A stretch of DNA of 64,000 bases, taken from positions 3,649,001 through 3,713,000 of the forward strand of contig NC_019974.1 in the NCBI RefSeq assembly GCF_000328685.1. Direction: 5' to 3'. The translations under genes were made by a program, and so were the position numbers. The notes beneath the pieces were generated by a model that saw only the letters and a program-made list of their open reading frames with translations, searched no databases and was not told the origin of the DNA. This stretch comes from Natronococcus occultus SP4. Lineage in GTDB: Archaea > Halobacteriota > Halobacteria > Halobacteriales > Natrialbaceae. Below, piece after piece: positions 12,188 through 17,817 of this stretch (position 1 is the stretch's first letter; each line of letters opens with the position of its first letter).

Positions 12188-13678
12188 TTACTGATCACCC
12201 TCGTCGGATTCCTGGTCCTCAGGGACGAGCTCCTCGGGATCGACACCCTCCGGCGCCGGATCCGCCAACACCTCGAAGGGGTCGAAGTGTCCCGCGGGTC
12301 CGCCGCGGTCGTCGCCGCGTGCGGGCTCGGCGTCGATCGAGAACGTGTAGGCGCCGGTCATCGTATCGCTGACGAAGACGAAGTCCCGTTCCTCGTTGTA
12401 CGCCGCGCCCCAGGCGAACGGCGGAGTGAACGGGAAGGCGACCTCGTCGGCGCCGTGTGCCGGTGTCCGGTCTCGTTCCGCGGTCGTCGCGTACCGTTCG
12501 AGAGGTTCGGGTGCCCGCGGATCCGTCACGTTTGCGACCCAGGCGCCGTTTCGGTAGCCGCCGTCGACGAGGAGAACCTCGTCGCCGTCGTGGATCACGT
12601 CGTGGAAGTGCGTGGTCCACCAGAACGGCTGCGAATCGGTCATCGGACGGGCGTCCGGCGAGTTCGTGAACCCGATCGGCCGGGGGTCCTCGAGGCTGCC
12701 CTCGTCCCAGCCGACGTCGATGACGTGTTTTCCGCCCGGGAGCTCGTGGCCCAGGGGCGGCGGCGGGACCTCGTCGCCAACGATCACGAGGTCCCGATCC
12801 GGGTCGGGGTGGGCCTGGTGGCAGAACTCCCAGCCTGGTTCGCCGACAGCCGTGTAATCGGAGTAGTCGTCGTAGTCGATCACGCCGATCGGGTCAGTCG
12901 GGGGTTCGAGCGGATCGCTGACGTCGAAGACGGCGTATCCAACGAACGGACCGAAGATGTACGCCGCGTGGATGACCTCGCGTTCGGGGTCGACCTTGAC
13001 GTCGTGACAGTAGCCGTCGATCCCGAACGCGCTGTGGAGCGCGGGGTCGGCCGGGTCGCTGAAGTCGACGGCGATGATCCCGGGCTCCTCGAACTGTTTG
13101 TCGATCACGTAAAGCACTGGCTCCTCGGGGTGTTCGGTGATCTTGTGGACGCCGGTGTTCGGCGTCTCGACGCTGGCGATCACCGCCGGGTCCTCGGGGG
13201 TTCCCTCCTCCCAGCCGAAGTCGACGACCTCGAACCCCTCCTCGCCCTGGGGATCGGGTTCCGGATCCGTTAGCTCGCCTTCGTCCTCGGCCTCCTGGGA
13301 ACGGACGTAAATCCCCTCGCGGAGGGGGTCGAACTTCACGTCGTTCGTCCGGGTGAGTTCGTTCGCCGTCGGAAGTTCGTGGGCGACGCTGGGGTTCTCG
13401 AGCTCCGAGAGGTCGATTAGCGTACTCGCCACGTCGCTGTCGCTCCGCGGGAAACTGCCCATCACGCCCCACTCGCCGTCCGGGGAGACGTGCCCGAACG
13501 TGTACGCGGGCGCGTCCTCGGGAAGGACGTGACCGATCGGATCGATCCGACCGCGGGCTCGTCGCTCGTCGCCGTCGATCTCGGAACTGGGCTCGGCCGC
13601 TACGGGACCGGAACCGATCGTCGCGGTCGCCGCGCCAGCGACAGCGGCTCGCCGTAGCAGGGTGCGTCTCGTCGGCAT
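12188..13678 (-). CDS. Tat-exported LVIVD repeat protein
   Basis: The start at ATG 13678 gives MPTRRTLLRRAAVAGAAT, a twin-arginine signal followed by a short hydrophobic stretch and an AEPSS region, so export by Tat with cleavage near residue 30 is likely. The 496-residue protein contains repeated beta-propeller-like blades with IIAVDFSDPADP, YAVFDVSDPLEP and WVANVTDPRAP, typical of LVIVD repeats. His-rich segments (YCHDVKVD, FCHQAHPDPDRD, TTHFHDVIHDGD) may bind metal. No catalytic assignment can be made. It is convergent with the AEC transporter. Confidence 0.85.
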   Translation of the reverse strand: MPTRRTLLRRAAVAGAATATIGSGPVAAEPSSEIDGDERRARGRIDPIGHVLPEDAPAYTFGHVSPDGEWGVMGSFPRSDSDVASTLIDLSELENPSVAHELPTANELTRTNDVKFDPLREGIYVRSQEAEDEGELTDPEPDPQGEEGFEVVDFGWEEGTPEDPAVIASVETPNTGVHKITEHPEEPVLYVIDKQFEEPGIIAVDFSDPADPALHSAFGIDGYCHDVKVDPEREVIHAAYIFGPFVGYAVFDVSDPLEPPTDPIGVIDYDDYSDYTAVGEPGWEFCHQAHPDPDRDLVIVGDEVPPPPLGHELPGGKHVIDVGWDEGSLEDPRPIGFTNSPDARPMTDSQPFWWTTHFHDVIHDGDEVLLVDGGYRNGAWVANVTDPRAPEPLERYATTAERDRTPAHGADEVAFPFTPPFAWGAAYNEERDFVFVSDTMTGAYTFSIDAEPARGDDRGGPAGHFDPFEVLADPAPEGVDPEELVPEDQESDEGDQ

Positions 13679-13983: not shown

Positions 13984-14373
13984 TCACTCGCCGTAGGCGA
14001 GCGTCGAGAGGCCCGCGTTCTCCGATTGGCGGGTATCCTGGCGGCTCCACTGGACGACGACCGGCACGTTCGACTCGACGACGATTCCGTACTCCTCGCC
14101 CAGCGGCGGCGCGTACGGGTCGATCAGGTCGTTAATCCGGACGTGGCGGACGCGGCGAGCAGCGACGCTCAGCGGGTATGGGCCCGCCTCGTTGCCGTCC
14201 GCGTACTGGAGGGTCACCTCGAGGGTCGCCATCTCGTCGCCGGCGTTGAGCAGACACAGTCGCTCGTGGCTGACCATCTCCGGTTCGGGGCCGGTGCTGT
14301 CGACTGGCACGTGCCCGCCGGGGAGCTCCCAGCGCGTCGCTCCGATCGGATCGGTCGCGTCCTCGTCGGTCAT
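13984..14373 (-). CDS. Sensory rhodopsin transducer (ASRT) family protein, copy 2
   Basis: This 129-residue protein has the family pattern of the Anabaena sensory rhodopsin transducer: an N-terminal W-x-PGGHVP, STGPEPEMVSHERLCLLN, then RRVRHVRINDL and a C-terminal VESNVPVVVQWSRQDTRQ. The fold is a small beta-sandwich proposed to bind small molecules. No rhodopsin gene is visible here. The ATG overlaps the stop of the upstream FAD-oxidase gene by 4 nt, so it is the third gene of a translationally coupled operon. It is a diverged paralogue of the first operon gene (15677-16045). Confidence 0.82.
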   Translation of the reverse strand: MTDEDATDPIGATRWELPGGHVPVDSTGPEPEMVSHERLCLLNAGDEMATLEVTLQYADGNEAGPYPLSVAARRVRHVRINDLIDPYAPPLGEEYGIVVESNVPVVVQWSRQDTRQSENAGLSTLAYGE

Positions 14374-15680
14374 GGTTCACCCTCGACTGGCTCGGCCGTC
14401 GGTGCATCGTCGGTCTGCTCACCGTCGCCAGCCGTCGCTCCCAGCAGCTCCTCCAGGTAGTCCGTCATGAACACGCCCCCGGGATCCAGCTCACGGCGCA
14501 GCGCCTGAAATCGCTCCCACTCGGGGTACAGTTCGCTGAGTTCGGGCGCCCGGAGCGTGTGTTTCTTCCCCCAGTGGGGGCGGCCGTCGTACTCGTGGAA
14601 GATCGGTTCGACGTCCTCGAAGTACGGCCAGTGGTCGAGCTCGGCGTTCTGGATGCACGAGATCGTCATCACGTCGCGGTCGTACTCCGTCGAGAGCATC
14701 GCGTCGTCGGCCGCGACGGTGCGGACGAGCAGCCGCCAGCCGACGTCGGCCCGCCAGTTCTCGCGGACTCGTTCGCGGACCTCCTCGAGACAGTCGAACC
14801 CGTCCTCGATCGGAACGGCGTACTCCATCTCGTCGAACTCGCGGCCGATGTCGTCGTGCTCGGGGATCGTCTCCTGCCACCAGCCGGTCTGGTCCTCGAC
14901 GAGCGTTGCGTAGGACAGGTCCTCGTGGTCGGTCCCCCCGCCGGGCGCGTTGAGCAGGCGCAGCTTCACCTCGTCGGAGCGGGGGTACCAGTAGCAGTCG
15001 AAGTTGCGGTTTTCCTCGATCAGGTCAGGGAGATGGTCCCGACACTCGCGCCAGCTCGTACAGTACTCGCGGCGCTGGAGCTTGTAGGTCGTCTGCAGGT
15101 CGAGCGTCACTTCGGTAAAGATCCCGAGCGTTCCGAGCGATACCCGCGCCGCCCGCAGCAGGTCGGGATCGGAGTCGGCGTCGAACTCGCGGATCTCGCC
15201 GGTCCCGGTGACCATCCGCCCGCCGACGAACGAGCCCGCGAGGTTCTCGAATTCGGGACCCGTTCCGTGCGTACCGGTACCGAACGCTCCAGCGACGGTC
15301 TGCATCGTGACGTCGCCGAGGTTCGGCAGCGCGAGGTTTCGATCGTGCAGTTCGGTCCCTGCCTCCTCGAGCGTCGTCCCGGCGTACAGCGTCGCCGTCT
15401 TCGCCTCGGAGTCATGGGAGACGACTCCGGTCAGGTTCGTCAGCGAGACGACGACGTCGTCGGTCCTCACGACGGGCGTCCAGGAGTGGCCCGCGCCGGC
15501 GACGCGGACGGTTCTGTCCTCCTCGGCGCACCGACGAACGATCTCCTGCAGTTCGGACTCGCTCTCGGGCTCGAGGATCTGTGCCGGCTGAAACGAGACG
15601 CTTCCCGACCAGTTCGTCCACTCCTCGGCGTCGGCGTCTTCGTCCGTGATTTCCTCGTCCGACTCCGGGCCCATCGTCAC
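14370..15680 (-). CDS. FAD-linked oxidase of the sugar-lactone oxidase (ALO/GULO) type
   Basis: About 436 residues from GTG 15680, or 434 from ATG 15674; the GTG overlaps the upstream stop as GTGA. The PCMH-type FAD domain begins at SGSVSFQPAQILEP and contains VRVAGAGHSWTPVV, where the His is the position that carries covalent flavin in VAO-family oxidases, then GTGTHGTG and SLGTLGIFTEVTL. The C-terminal ALO domain carries RPHWGKKHTL and ends in LDPGGVFMTDYLEELLG. Related enzymes oxidise aldonolactones or alditols with O2 or a quinone. It is sandwiched between two ASRT-family proteins, suggesting that a sugar-like ligand is sensed or delivered. Confidence 0.87.
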   Translation of the reverse strand: MTMGPESDEEITDEDADAEEWTNWSGSVSFQPAQILEPESESELQEIVRRCAEEDRTVRVAGAGHSWTPVVRTDDVVVSLTNLTGVVSHDSEAKTATLYAGTTLEEAGTELHDRNLALPNLGDVTMQTVAGAFGTGTHGTGPEFENLAGSFVGGRMVTGTGEIREFDADSDPDLLRAARVSLGTLGIFTEVTLDLQTTYKLQRREYCTSWRECRDHLPDLIEENRNFDCYWYPRSDEVKLRLLNAPGGGTDHEDLSYATLVEDQTGWWQETIPEHDDIGREFDEMEYAVPIEDGFDCLEEVRERVRENWRADVGWRLLVRTVAADDAMLSTEYDRDVMTISCIQNAELDHWPYFEDVEPIFHEYDGRPHWGKKHTLRAPELSELYPEWERFQALRRELDPGGVFMTDYLEELLGATAGDGEQTDDAPTAEPVEGEP

Positions 15681-16045
15681 TCACCCGGATGCGCCATCGT
15701 CGTGAGCAAGGCGTTCTCTGCCTGGCGCGAGTCCAGCCGGGTGTGCTGGCAGACCACCGGCACGTCGGACTCGATCACGCTCGCGAAGTCCTCGCCTTTC
15801 GGGATCGGTTCGGGGTCCTCGAGTTCGTTAAACCGGAAGTGTCGGGTTCGCTCGGCGGGGACGGTCAGCTCGTATGGGCCGACGGGTTCGCGATCGGTGA
15901 AGTAGCAGGTGAGTTCGATCGTCGCGTCCTCGTCGGTCGTGTTCAGGACACAGACGGTCTCATGACTCTCCATCTCCGGCTCGGGGCCGGTGCTCTCTTC
16001 GGGGATATACCCTTCCGGAATCGCCCAGGTGTGTTTTCCGGTCAT
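15677..16045 (-). CDS. Sensory rhodopsin transducer (ASRT) family protein, copy 1
   Basis: The 122-residue protein starts MTGKHTWAIPEGYIPEE and shares with the downstream paralogue the block STGPEPEMESHETVCVLN, the ERTRHFRFNEL segment and the tail ESDVPVVCQHTRLDSRQAE. It is the first gene of the three-gene operon and its stop overlaps the start of the oxidase gene. In the copies the central aromatic residue differs (W after VVQ in copy 2, H after VVCQ here), which may alter ligand choice. The protein is predicted soluble with no signal peptide. Confidence 0.83.
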   Translation of the reverse strand: MTGKHTWAIPEGYIPEESTGPEPEMESHETVCVLNTTDEDATIELTCYFTDREPVGPYELTVPAERTRHFRFNELEDPEPIPKGEDFASVIESDVPVVCQHTRLDSRQAENALLTTMAHPGE

Positions 16046-16205
16046 CGTCCTGTAGTGACGGCGGGCACGTGGATAACGAACCGGCCTGTACCCTCAGGCG
16101 AGGACCCGCGCCTCGCGAGTCCGACGCGGTCGCGGCCCGAGACAAAACCGCCCGACTCCGGGCGAGTCGATAGCTATATACCGTCGCTGTGTGCCAGCTT
16201 CACCC

Positions 16206-16340
16206 ATGGTGCTGGGAGTACCCACGGGAACCGCCGTCGCGCTGTTCGTGATGGTGGCACTCCCGATCGCGACGCTCGTCCTGTACTGGATCGATCGAAC
16301 GACCAACGACGGCTACGTCTCGGTCCTGGGGAGGCGGTAA
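16206..16340 (+). CDS. Symporter small accessory protein (44 aa)
   Basis: ATG 16206 opens a frame that ends at TAA 16340, one base before the ATG of the sodium:solute symporter. The peptide has one membrane helix (residues 7-29, VALFVMVALPIATLVLYWID) and a short polar tail ending VSVLGRR. Single-helix proteins directly upstream of SSS-family transporters are a known accessory class. The tight spacing supports co-translation. It is short and easily missed by gene finders. Confidence 0.75.
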   Translation: MVLGVPTGTAVALFVMVALPIATLVLYWIDRTTNDGYVSVLGRR

Positions 16341-16341
16341 A

Positions 16342-17817
16342 ATGGTGTCGACGATACAGCTCACCTTCGGCGCGTATCTGCTCGTCCTGCTGGCGATCGG
16401 GGCGTACTTCTTCGTGACGACGGAGACGAACCGGCTTTCCGAGTACCTTCTCGCGGATCGGGACGTCGGGGCCTGGCCGGTCGCGATCTCCGAAGTGTCC
16501 TCCGTCGCCAGCGGCTGGACCTTTTTCGCCTGGGTCGGGATGGGCTTTCTGACCGGGATCCACGGCCTGTGGTTCTCGATCACGATGATCTTCATCATCG
16601 TCTTCATGTACCGCTACGTCGGCTCGCGGTTTCGCCGCCAGTCCGAGCAGCTGGGAAGCATCACGATCGCCGACCACCTCTCGCTCGCGGTCGAGGACGC
16701 CAGGCTCAGCACGTACGTTCGGGTGGTCGCGACGGTTTCGATCCTGCTGTTTATGGGCGCCTACGTCGGCGCCCAGATCATCGCCGTCGGCGAGGCGATG
16801 GACACCGGGATCGGTATCGACTACGCGGTCGCGATCGCCGTCGGCGGCGTCATCGTCGGCCTGTACACGATGCTCGGGGGGTTTAACGCCTCCATCTGGA
16901 CCGACGTCTTCCAGGGGGTCCTCATCTTCGTCGCCGCGGTGACGCTGCCGGTGTTGATGATCGCCGAGATCGGCGGCTGGTCGGCGTTCGTCACCGAGGC
17001 GGCAGCCGTCGAGGACGCGGCGCTGCTCGAGATGTCCGCCGGACTGGCCGGACAGGCGTTCCTGCTGTCGGCGCTCGGGCTGGTGACGTTCGCGTTCGGG
17101 ACCATCGGGCAGCCCCACTCGCTGATGCGGCTCCAGGCGATCCGCTCGGAGCGGCTGCTCAGCCCCGCGTCGGTCATCTCGGTCTCCTTCCAGTCGCTCA
17201 GACTGACGGTGCCGCTGCTGATCGGCGCTGCCGGCCGCGTCCTCTACGGCTCCGTCGACAACCCCGAGAACGTCGCGATGATGGCTATCGTCGACTTCTT
17301 CCCGGAGCTGATCGCGGGCGTCCTGCTCGCGGCGATCGTCTCCGCGATCCTCTCGACGTCGGACTCGATGCTGCTGGTCGCGTCCTCCGACTTCACCCGG
17401 TTCTACGAGGAGAAGATCGATCCGAACGCGAGCTCGGCCCGGCTCATCCTGCTCGGGCGGGGGACCGTCGGCGTCCTGGCGCTGGGTGGCGTTGCACTCG
17501 CGTTCGTCCAGCCCGGAACGATCTTCGAGATCATCGAGTTCGCGTACGTCGGTCTCGGCGCCACGTTCGGACTCCCGCTGCTGTTTATGCTGTTCTGGGA
17601 GCGAACGACCGGCGAAGCCGTCCTGACCGGGATCGTCACCGGTCTGGTGGCGACGTTCGGTGCGGGGTGGATCACGCCCGAGCACTACTCGCTGTTCGTC
17701 TGGCCGATCTGTATCGCCGCGATCGTCGGCGTCACGTTCGCCACCTCGGGCACCGGTTCCGACGTCGCCGACGTTCCCGAGCCGGGTGCGGGCGACGCGT
17801 CGCCCGCGGACGACTGA
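16342..17817 (+). CDS. Sodium:solute symporter family protein (SSS, PutP-like)
   Basis: The 491-residue transporter has about 13 hydrophobic segments. Typical SSS sites are YLLADRDVGAWPVAISEVSS with VASGWTFF in helix 1-2, and SAILSTSDSMLLVASSDF in the region that forms the Na+ site of vSGLT/PutP-like carriers. FGTIGQPHSLMRLQAIRS resembles proline and monocarboxylate symporters. The C-terminus is acidic and cytoplasmic. Substrate is uncertain; proline, pantothenate or a carboxylate are possible. It is coupled to the 44-aa accessory gene and lies directly upstream of Bax1. Confidence 0.93.
   Translation: MVSTIQLTFGAYLLVLLAIGAYFFVTTETNRLSEYLLADRDVGAWPVAISEVSSVASGWTFFAWVGMGFLTGIHGLWFSITMIFIIVFMYRYVGSRFRRQSEQLGSITIADHLSLAVEDARLSTYVRVVATVSILLFMGAYVGAQIIAVGEAMDTGIGIDYAVAIAVGGVIVGLYTMLGGFNASIWTDVFQGVLIFVAAVTLPVLMIAEIGGWSAFVTEAAAVEDAALLEMSAGLAGQAFLLSALGLVTFAFGTIGQPHSLMRLQAIRSERLLSPASVISVSFQSLRLTVPLLIGAAGRVLYGSVDNPENVAMMAIVDFFPELIAGVLLAAIVSAILSTSDSMLLVASSDFTRFYEEKIDPNASSARLILLGRGTVGVLALGGVALAFVQPGTIFEIIEFAYVGLGATFGLPLLFMLFWERTTGEAVLTGIVTGLVATFGAGWITPEHYSLFVWPICIAAIVGVTFATSGTGSDVADVPEPGAGDASPADD

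Follow-up and report, generated by a model that had tools for sequence, protein, structure and literature searches.

An FAD-dependent oxidase gene and a diverged ASRT paralogue form a conserved pair beside an ordinary ASRT gene in Natronococcus occultus SP4, in other haloarchaea and in bacteria

The conserved unit of a three-gene array of Natronococcus occultus SP4, in which an FAD oxidase gene (OX) lies between two genes of the Anabaena sensory rhodopsin transducer family (ASRT1 and ASRT2), is the OX-ASRT2 pair and not a symmetric sandwich; ASRT1 is an ordinary ASRT, encoded by a separate gene and far more widespread than ASRT2. The window analysed is a stretch of 64,000 nt (NC_019974.1, positions 3,649,001 to 3,713,000) of the 4.3 Mb genome of this member of the Natrialbaceae, which encodes exactly two ASRTs, both in the array. 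The ASRT-oxidase-ASRT order given in the initial annotation was confirmed, all three genes being on the minus strand. In profile searches both ASRTs match PF07100 over their whole length (ASRT1 194.4 bits, ASRT2 154.4 bits; cut-off 25), and OX matches PF01565 (FAD_binding_4) and PF04030 (ALO) and scores 351 bits against TIGR01679 (cut-off 292). Transcription runs from ASRT1 through OX to ASRT2. Public records name the ASRTs 'sensory rhodopsin transducer' and OX 'D-arabinono-1,4-lactone oxidase'. The features are as follows (positions in the window):

15677..16045, minus strand: ASRT1, 122 aa, canonical stand-alone ASRT (PF07100, 194 bits), placed in the tree among ordinary ASRTs
14370..15674, minus strand: OX, FAD oxidase of 434 aa (start ATG 15674) or 436 aa (start GTG 15680)
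13984..14373, minus strand: ASRT2, 129 aa, a diverged paralogue restricted to the OX cassette and bearing a RINDLI signature (PF07100, 154 bits)
14370..14373, minus strand: ATGA overlap of ASRT2 start and OX stop, read from the sequence; -4 in 25/25 loci
15486..15488, minus strand: codon for His65 of OX (in GAGHS), where FAD is expected to be covalently attached
15315..15317, minus strand: codon for Gly122 of OX, which occupies the position of the oxygen gatekeeper Ala113 in GalDH
14979..14993, minus strand: OX YWYPR signature, ASRT-linked clade only
14727..14729, minus strand: OX Leu318 codon, Glu of E-x-R in unlinked relatives and alditol oxidases
16046-16341: intergenic DNA upstream of ASRT1

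All three genes had been described as overlapping by 4 nt, which is true for OX and ASRT2 with their ATGA overlap. The ASRT1/OX junction is ambiguous, the GTG at 15680 giving a 4-nt overlap and the ATG at 15674 lying 2 nt past the ASRT1 stop; the +2 start is the commoner one among relatives (10 loci, versus six with a GTG at -4), and across loci this junction ranges from -4 to +55. The OX stop and ASRT2 start overlap by exactly 4 nt in all 25 distinct archaeal and bacterial loci, a set that excludes Sinorhizobium meliloti, and this recurrence is more than chance. Within the genus, a gene for a PutP-like sodium:solute symporter (16342-17817), absent at this place from other genera, is divergent from ASRT1 and shares the intergenic region with it, while directly downstream of ASRT2 lies a gene (12188-13678) for a protein with a Tat-type signal that weakly resembles the choice-of-anchor B family and for which a Pfam search returned no match. 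As neither neighbour is conserved outside the genus, both were treated as background synteny, and a functional link of the array to the SSS symporter or the secreted protein was rejected.

Among the Natrialbaceae, 36 of 125 genomes carry an ASRT, and these loci were examined over up to 19 kb around. Thirteen relatives share the contiguous array ASRT1-OX-ASRT2 with the window genome, three loci (L046, L048 and L050) possess OX-ASRT2 with ASRT1 located elsewhere, and most of the remaining ASRT-bearing genomes have a solo ASRT1. Searching the family with OX as the query returned 17 orthologues with at least 60% identity, every one adjoined by ASRT2 and in a genome that also encodes ASRT1; this search and a similar one in the Vulcaniibacterium order constitute the part of the comparison that is free of ASRT-query bias. 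Scores against an ASRT2 profile across 392 genomes of the haloarchaeal order split cleanly into about 200 bits or more and about 151 bits or less. The array is also present in two genomes of another family of this order, and a plasmid search located an OX-ASRT2 pair, with ASRT1 elsewhere, on the Natrialba magadii plasmid pNMAG01. Decaying copies were seen at other Natrialbaceae loci: at L057 ASRT1 is followed by short OX and ASRT2 remnants, and at L067, L068 and L069 the ASRT1 or OX gene is broken. One metagenome-assembled genome labelled Thermoplasmata carries an array (L116) with haloarchaeal relatives, and its bin name is probably wrong.

An ASRT alignment, run against named genomes of bacteria and archaea, yielded 80 loci from 385 relatives. 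Complete arrays were found in Salinimicrobium nanhaiense (L149) and Vulcaniibacterium thermophilum (L179), and two Nitrosomonas (L134, L148) have OX-ASRT2 with a divergent ASRT1. The Vulcaniibacterium order contains a second array-bearing member (G572, locus L254), and among its 299 genomes the OX subfamily occurs in these two only, both with ASRT2 (620 and 546 bits; other homologues at most 201 bits). The bacterial array is rare, since in two other orders (326 and 330 genomes) only the seed genome was positive in each. On pSymB of the root-nodule symbiont S. meliloti, a plasmid search revealed a run of genes for pyruvate oxidase, ASRT1, OX, ASRT2, TreS and a TIGR03885 oxidoreductase, of which the stretch from ASRT1 to TIGR03885 is located at L283:5989-10753, with both ASRT genes and OX lying inside 105080-109747 of NC_003078; this OX is 48% identical to the window OX, and about 120 nt separate it from ASRT2, so that translational coupling of the two genes would not be universal. 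Judged by its position, the TreS gene is presumably SMb20099. A gene of that number has been named treS (PMC4960864).

Loci of three Salinimicrobium species (L153, L154, L164) have ASRT1 at the same place and are missing OX-ASRT2; together with the remnants at L057, this indicates that OX-ASRT2 is gained or lost next to a standing ASRT1. The Salinimicrobium loci are colinear (LLM-GH13-GH13-ASRT1), L149 with the pair and the other three without it, and provide a natural presence/absence comparison. An array private to one genome or lineage, a possibility that would have refuted the initial annotation, was ruled out by the occurrences in other haloarchaea, in bacteria and in S. meliloti.

In the ASRT2 tree the haloarchaeal and bacterial sequences form one clade (support 99; 100/99 with S. 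meliloti), whereas the ASRT1 sequences from cassette genomes are placed among their own kin. Linked OX are likewise a single clade, set apart from their unlinked homologues (100/100), and the OX and ASRT2 trees group the bacteria alike; a tree including the S. meliloti OX was used solely for placing that protein among the linked OX. The partial distance correlation is 0.75 for OX and ASRT2 given ASRT1, and 0.42 for OX and ASRT1 given ASRT2, although distances in OX and in ASRT2 follow the species tree as well, and the bacterial branches are long. ASRT1 is encoded in all examined genomes carrying OX-ASRT2, a co-occurrence count that is affected by shared ancestry and by the fact that most bacterial loci were found via ASRT itself. 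No natural OX-ASRT2 fusion was found among the gene calls of the loci.

The two ASRT copies are not equivalent, and their predicted ligand pockets differ. De Souza et al. proposed, in the main text of their 2009 study, the His and Cys of an SHExxC motif as ligand contacts (PMC2739507). ASRT1 of the window, which is 68% identical to Anabaena ASRT (2II7) by alignment, keeps this motif as SHETVC (H28, C32), and in a de-duplicated set the predicted ligand His is conserved in 104/104 and the Cys in 103/104 ASRT1 sequences. For ASRT2 these numbers drop to 14/25 and 18/25. The window ASRT2 is unlike such relaxed relatives, as SHExxCxxN with both His and Cys is kept in both window proteins. An AF2 monomer model of ASRT2 (pLDDT 76) has 2II7 and 1NC7 as its nearest structures.

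The assignment of the oxidase to the TIGR01679 family stands. His65 of OX, which is invariant in the 26 linked OX, aligns with the His of alditol oxidase and with a Leu of GalDH, and Gly122, equally invariant, aligns with the Gly of the GalDH A113G variant (8QNC). In aldonolactone oxidases such a His is the site of 8-alpha-histidyl FAD attachment and a gatekeeper Gly is associated with oxygen use (PMC11099136). OX carries both residues of an oxygen-using, covalently flavinylated aldonolactone oxidase, and from this pair covalent FAD and oxygen use are expected. The substrate site differs: the Glu of the E-x-R motif, which we take to be the substrate-holding residue in AldO and GalDH, is present in 7/7 unlinked relatives and in 2/2 solved alditol oxidases, but it is replaced by Leu (Leu318 in the window) in 26/26 linked OX. 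This makes a standard alditol or aldonolactone substrate, as initially suggested, doubtful, and the substrate of OX is probably not bound in the usual way. In its fold, covalent-FAD His, oxidase Gly and HWGK motif OX resembles the GULO/ALO/GalDH/AldO enzymes, and its AF2 monomer model (pLDDT 79) has GalDH and alditol oxidases as equally near matches (Z 43-45); it differs from them by the Leu, by a YWYPR motif present in all 26 linked OX and exclusive to the ASRT-linked clade, by a WRxLxR motif that is also typical of it, and by the linked ASRT2.

Genes for a TIGR03885 FMN oxidoreductase, a TreS-like GH13 or a trehalase-like GH15 protein are found near 12 of the 25 cassette loci and near 20 of 84 other ASRT loci, as well as at the S. 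meliloti locus, and a further 16 loci display a pyruvate-oxidase/enolase-family/GlcD-like context. The earlier view of a conserved module, and of ASRT as a protein of sugar metabolism, is supported. The trehalose-type neighbours point to glucose or alpha-glucoside chemistry, weakly so for the window itself, as 13/25 cassette loci, the window included, have no trehalose-type gene nearby. In several genomes and in S. meliloti the cassette lies in or beside TIGR03885-TreS clusters; the window genome, in contrast, has its TIGR03885 gene far from the array, with no GH15 or TreS relative in the vicinity of that gene. The probable substrate, we infer, is glucose itself or a sugar that is set free from an alpha-glucoside.

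The explanation we prefer, for which we consider the chances about even, is that ASRT2 is the dedicated partner of a remodelled oxidase, made by coupled translation, and that ASRT1 is the sugar-binding member. On this view the locus is a two-gene OX-ASRT2 cassette immediately behind an ordinary, resident ASRT1. The oxidase would belong to the aldonolactone/alditol branch, work in the cytosol with covalently bound flavin and with oxygen, and have a remodelled substrate site; translation of ASRT2 would be coupled to the OX stop codon. ASRT2 is most likely bound to OX as a dedicated small beta-sandwich partner, either a subunit or an activator. ASRT1, whose predicted ligand pocket is intact, most likely binds the sugar for the pathway, and it may assemble into mixed tetramers with ASRT2 or deliver the substrate. 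A TIGR03885 flavin oxidoreductase and trehalose/alpha-glucoside enzymes would also belong to this pathway in many genomes. The adjacency of OX and ASRT2 may, however, reflect one shared pathway without contact between the proteins.

Both ASRTs could instead be free-standing soluble sugar sensors, which tune OX and other enzymes allosterically and are not subunits, a reading that seems unlikely to us. It is the proposal De Souza et al. made for ASRT in general, with 1,2-ethanediol bound in the TM1070 pocket as described in their main text (PMC2739507), and it agrees with the very different sugar enzymes that ASRT1 adjoins. ASRT2 is nevertheless confined to one enzyme and its predicted ligand residues are relaxed, so that a partner fits better than a sensor. 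The same relaxation of His and Cys weighs against a small catalyst, e.g. a sugar mutarotase or a lactone-opening enzyme, preparing the substrate or removing the product for OX and other sugar enzymes. This role, which we regard as improbable, would account for the many invariant polar ASRT residues besides His28 and Cys32 (H69, R71, Q100, R103 and D105), and it is in line with a lactonase-family gene near the Salinimicrobium array and with ASRT operons containing an isomerase, an aldolase and a kinase (PMC2739507, main text); no catalytic ASRT is known, however.

That both ASRTs are DNA-binding regulators of operon transcription is very improbable. Haloarchaeal ASRT1 proteins are strongly negative (mean net charge -14.5, pI 4.4) and reside in a cytosol of molar salt. 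Anabaena ASRT reportedly binds and loops promoter DNA through contacts R109, Q110 and N113, and this looping is abolished already at 300 mM NaCl (PMC8660804). The matching DSRQxEN stretch is retained in ASRT1 but degraded in bacterial ASRT2.

The absence of a rhodopsin gene, initially noted for the window, extends to the whole genome, in which PF01036 (Bac_rhodopsin) had no match, while the same model does match in haloarchaeal relatives; to the reach of such a profile search, neither the operon nor the genome holds the rhodopsin of a rhodopsin transducer system. PF01036 likewise had no match in the four bacterial cassette genomes tested and is absent from 35/46 ASRT genomes. ASRTs are not mostly associated with opsins: an opsin was found beside an ASRT at one locus only, L168 of the Oscillatoriaceae cyanobacterium Prado104, where (L168:6458-7635) the rhodopsin match ends about 140 nt before the start of a same-strand ASRT. 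This is apparently a second ASR-ASRT pair, outside Anabaena, to which such pairing was thought to be specific in 2011 (PMC3198991). The window array shares with the Anabaena system the close similarity of its ASRT1, but it is without a rhodopsin and has an oxidase as the partner gene. Light signalling, with the array left over from or working with a rhodopsin system whose genes lie elsewhere, is suggested by the family name and by the pairs in Anabaena and apparently L168; it is scarcely credible given these absences and was rejected for the window genome. As the OX-ASRT2 pair occurs in distant bacteria without rhodopsin, ASRT2 is most likely an enzyme partner and not a carrier of light signals.

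The module is less novel than the label 'undescribed' implied. The main text of De Souza, Iyer and Aravind (2009) already linked ASRT genes to amylases (in Sinorhizobium) and to an FAD-dependent oxidoreductase in rhodopsin-free operons (PMC2739507). The array shares with their ASRT/ASRAH sugar operons the PF07100 fold, the predicted sugar pocket and the lack of a rhodopsin; that main text does not contain the paired ASRT array around an ALO-type oxidase, the oxidase-specific paralogue or its pocket change. Publications dealing with lactone oxidase of haloarchaea, TIGR03885, TM1070 or the ASRT of S. meliloti contained nothing on an OX-ASRT2 module beyond it. In the literature searched, no description was found of the obligate pairing of OX with ASRT2 and its spread across domains, or of how the paralogues have split and the oxidase site has changed.

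ASRT has been known mainly as the soluble partner of one cyanobacterial rhodopsin, yet most ASRT genomes analysed here are without an opsin. With one ASRT paralogue tied to one enzyme in archaea and bacteria, including the tractable S. meliloti, the function of ASRT becomes open to a direct enzyme or interaction test. Going beyond the dedicated partner, it is possible, if doubtful, that OX-ASRT2 represents a two-component flavo-oxidase of an undescribed kind, i.e. a VAO-type sugar oxidase that no longer has a Glu of its own to anchor the substrate and relies on ASRT2 as a subunit translated together with it, while ASRT1 would load the sugar as an exchangeable subunit. If true, ASRTs in general would hand sugars to partner oxidoreductases, and their use with rhodopsin would be late and local.
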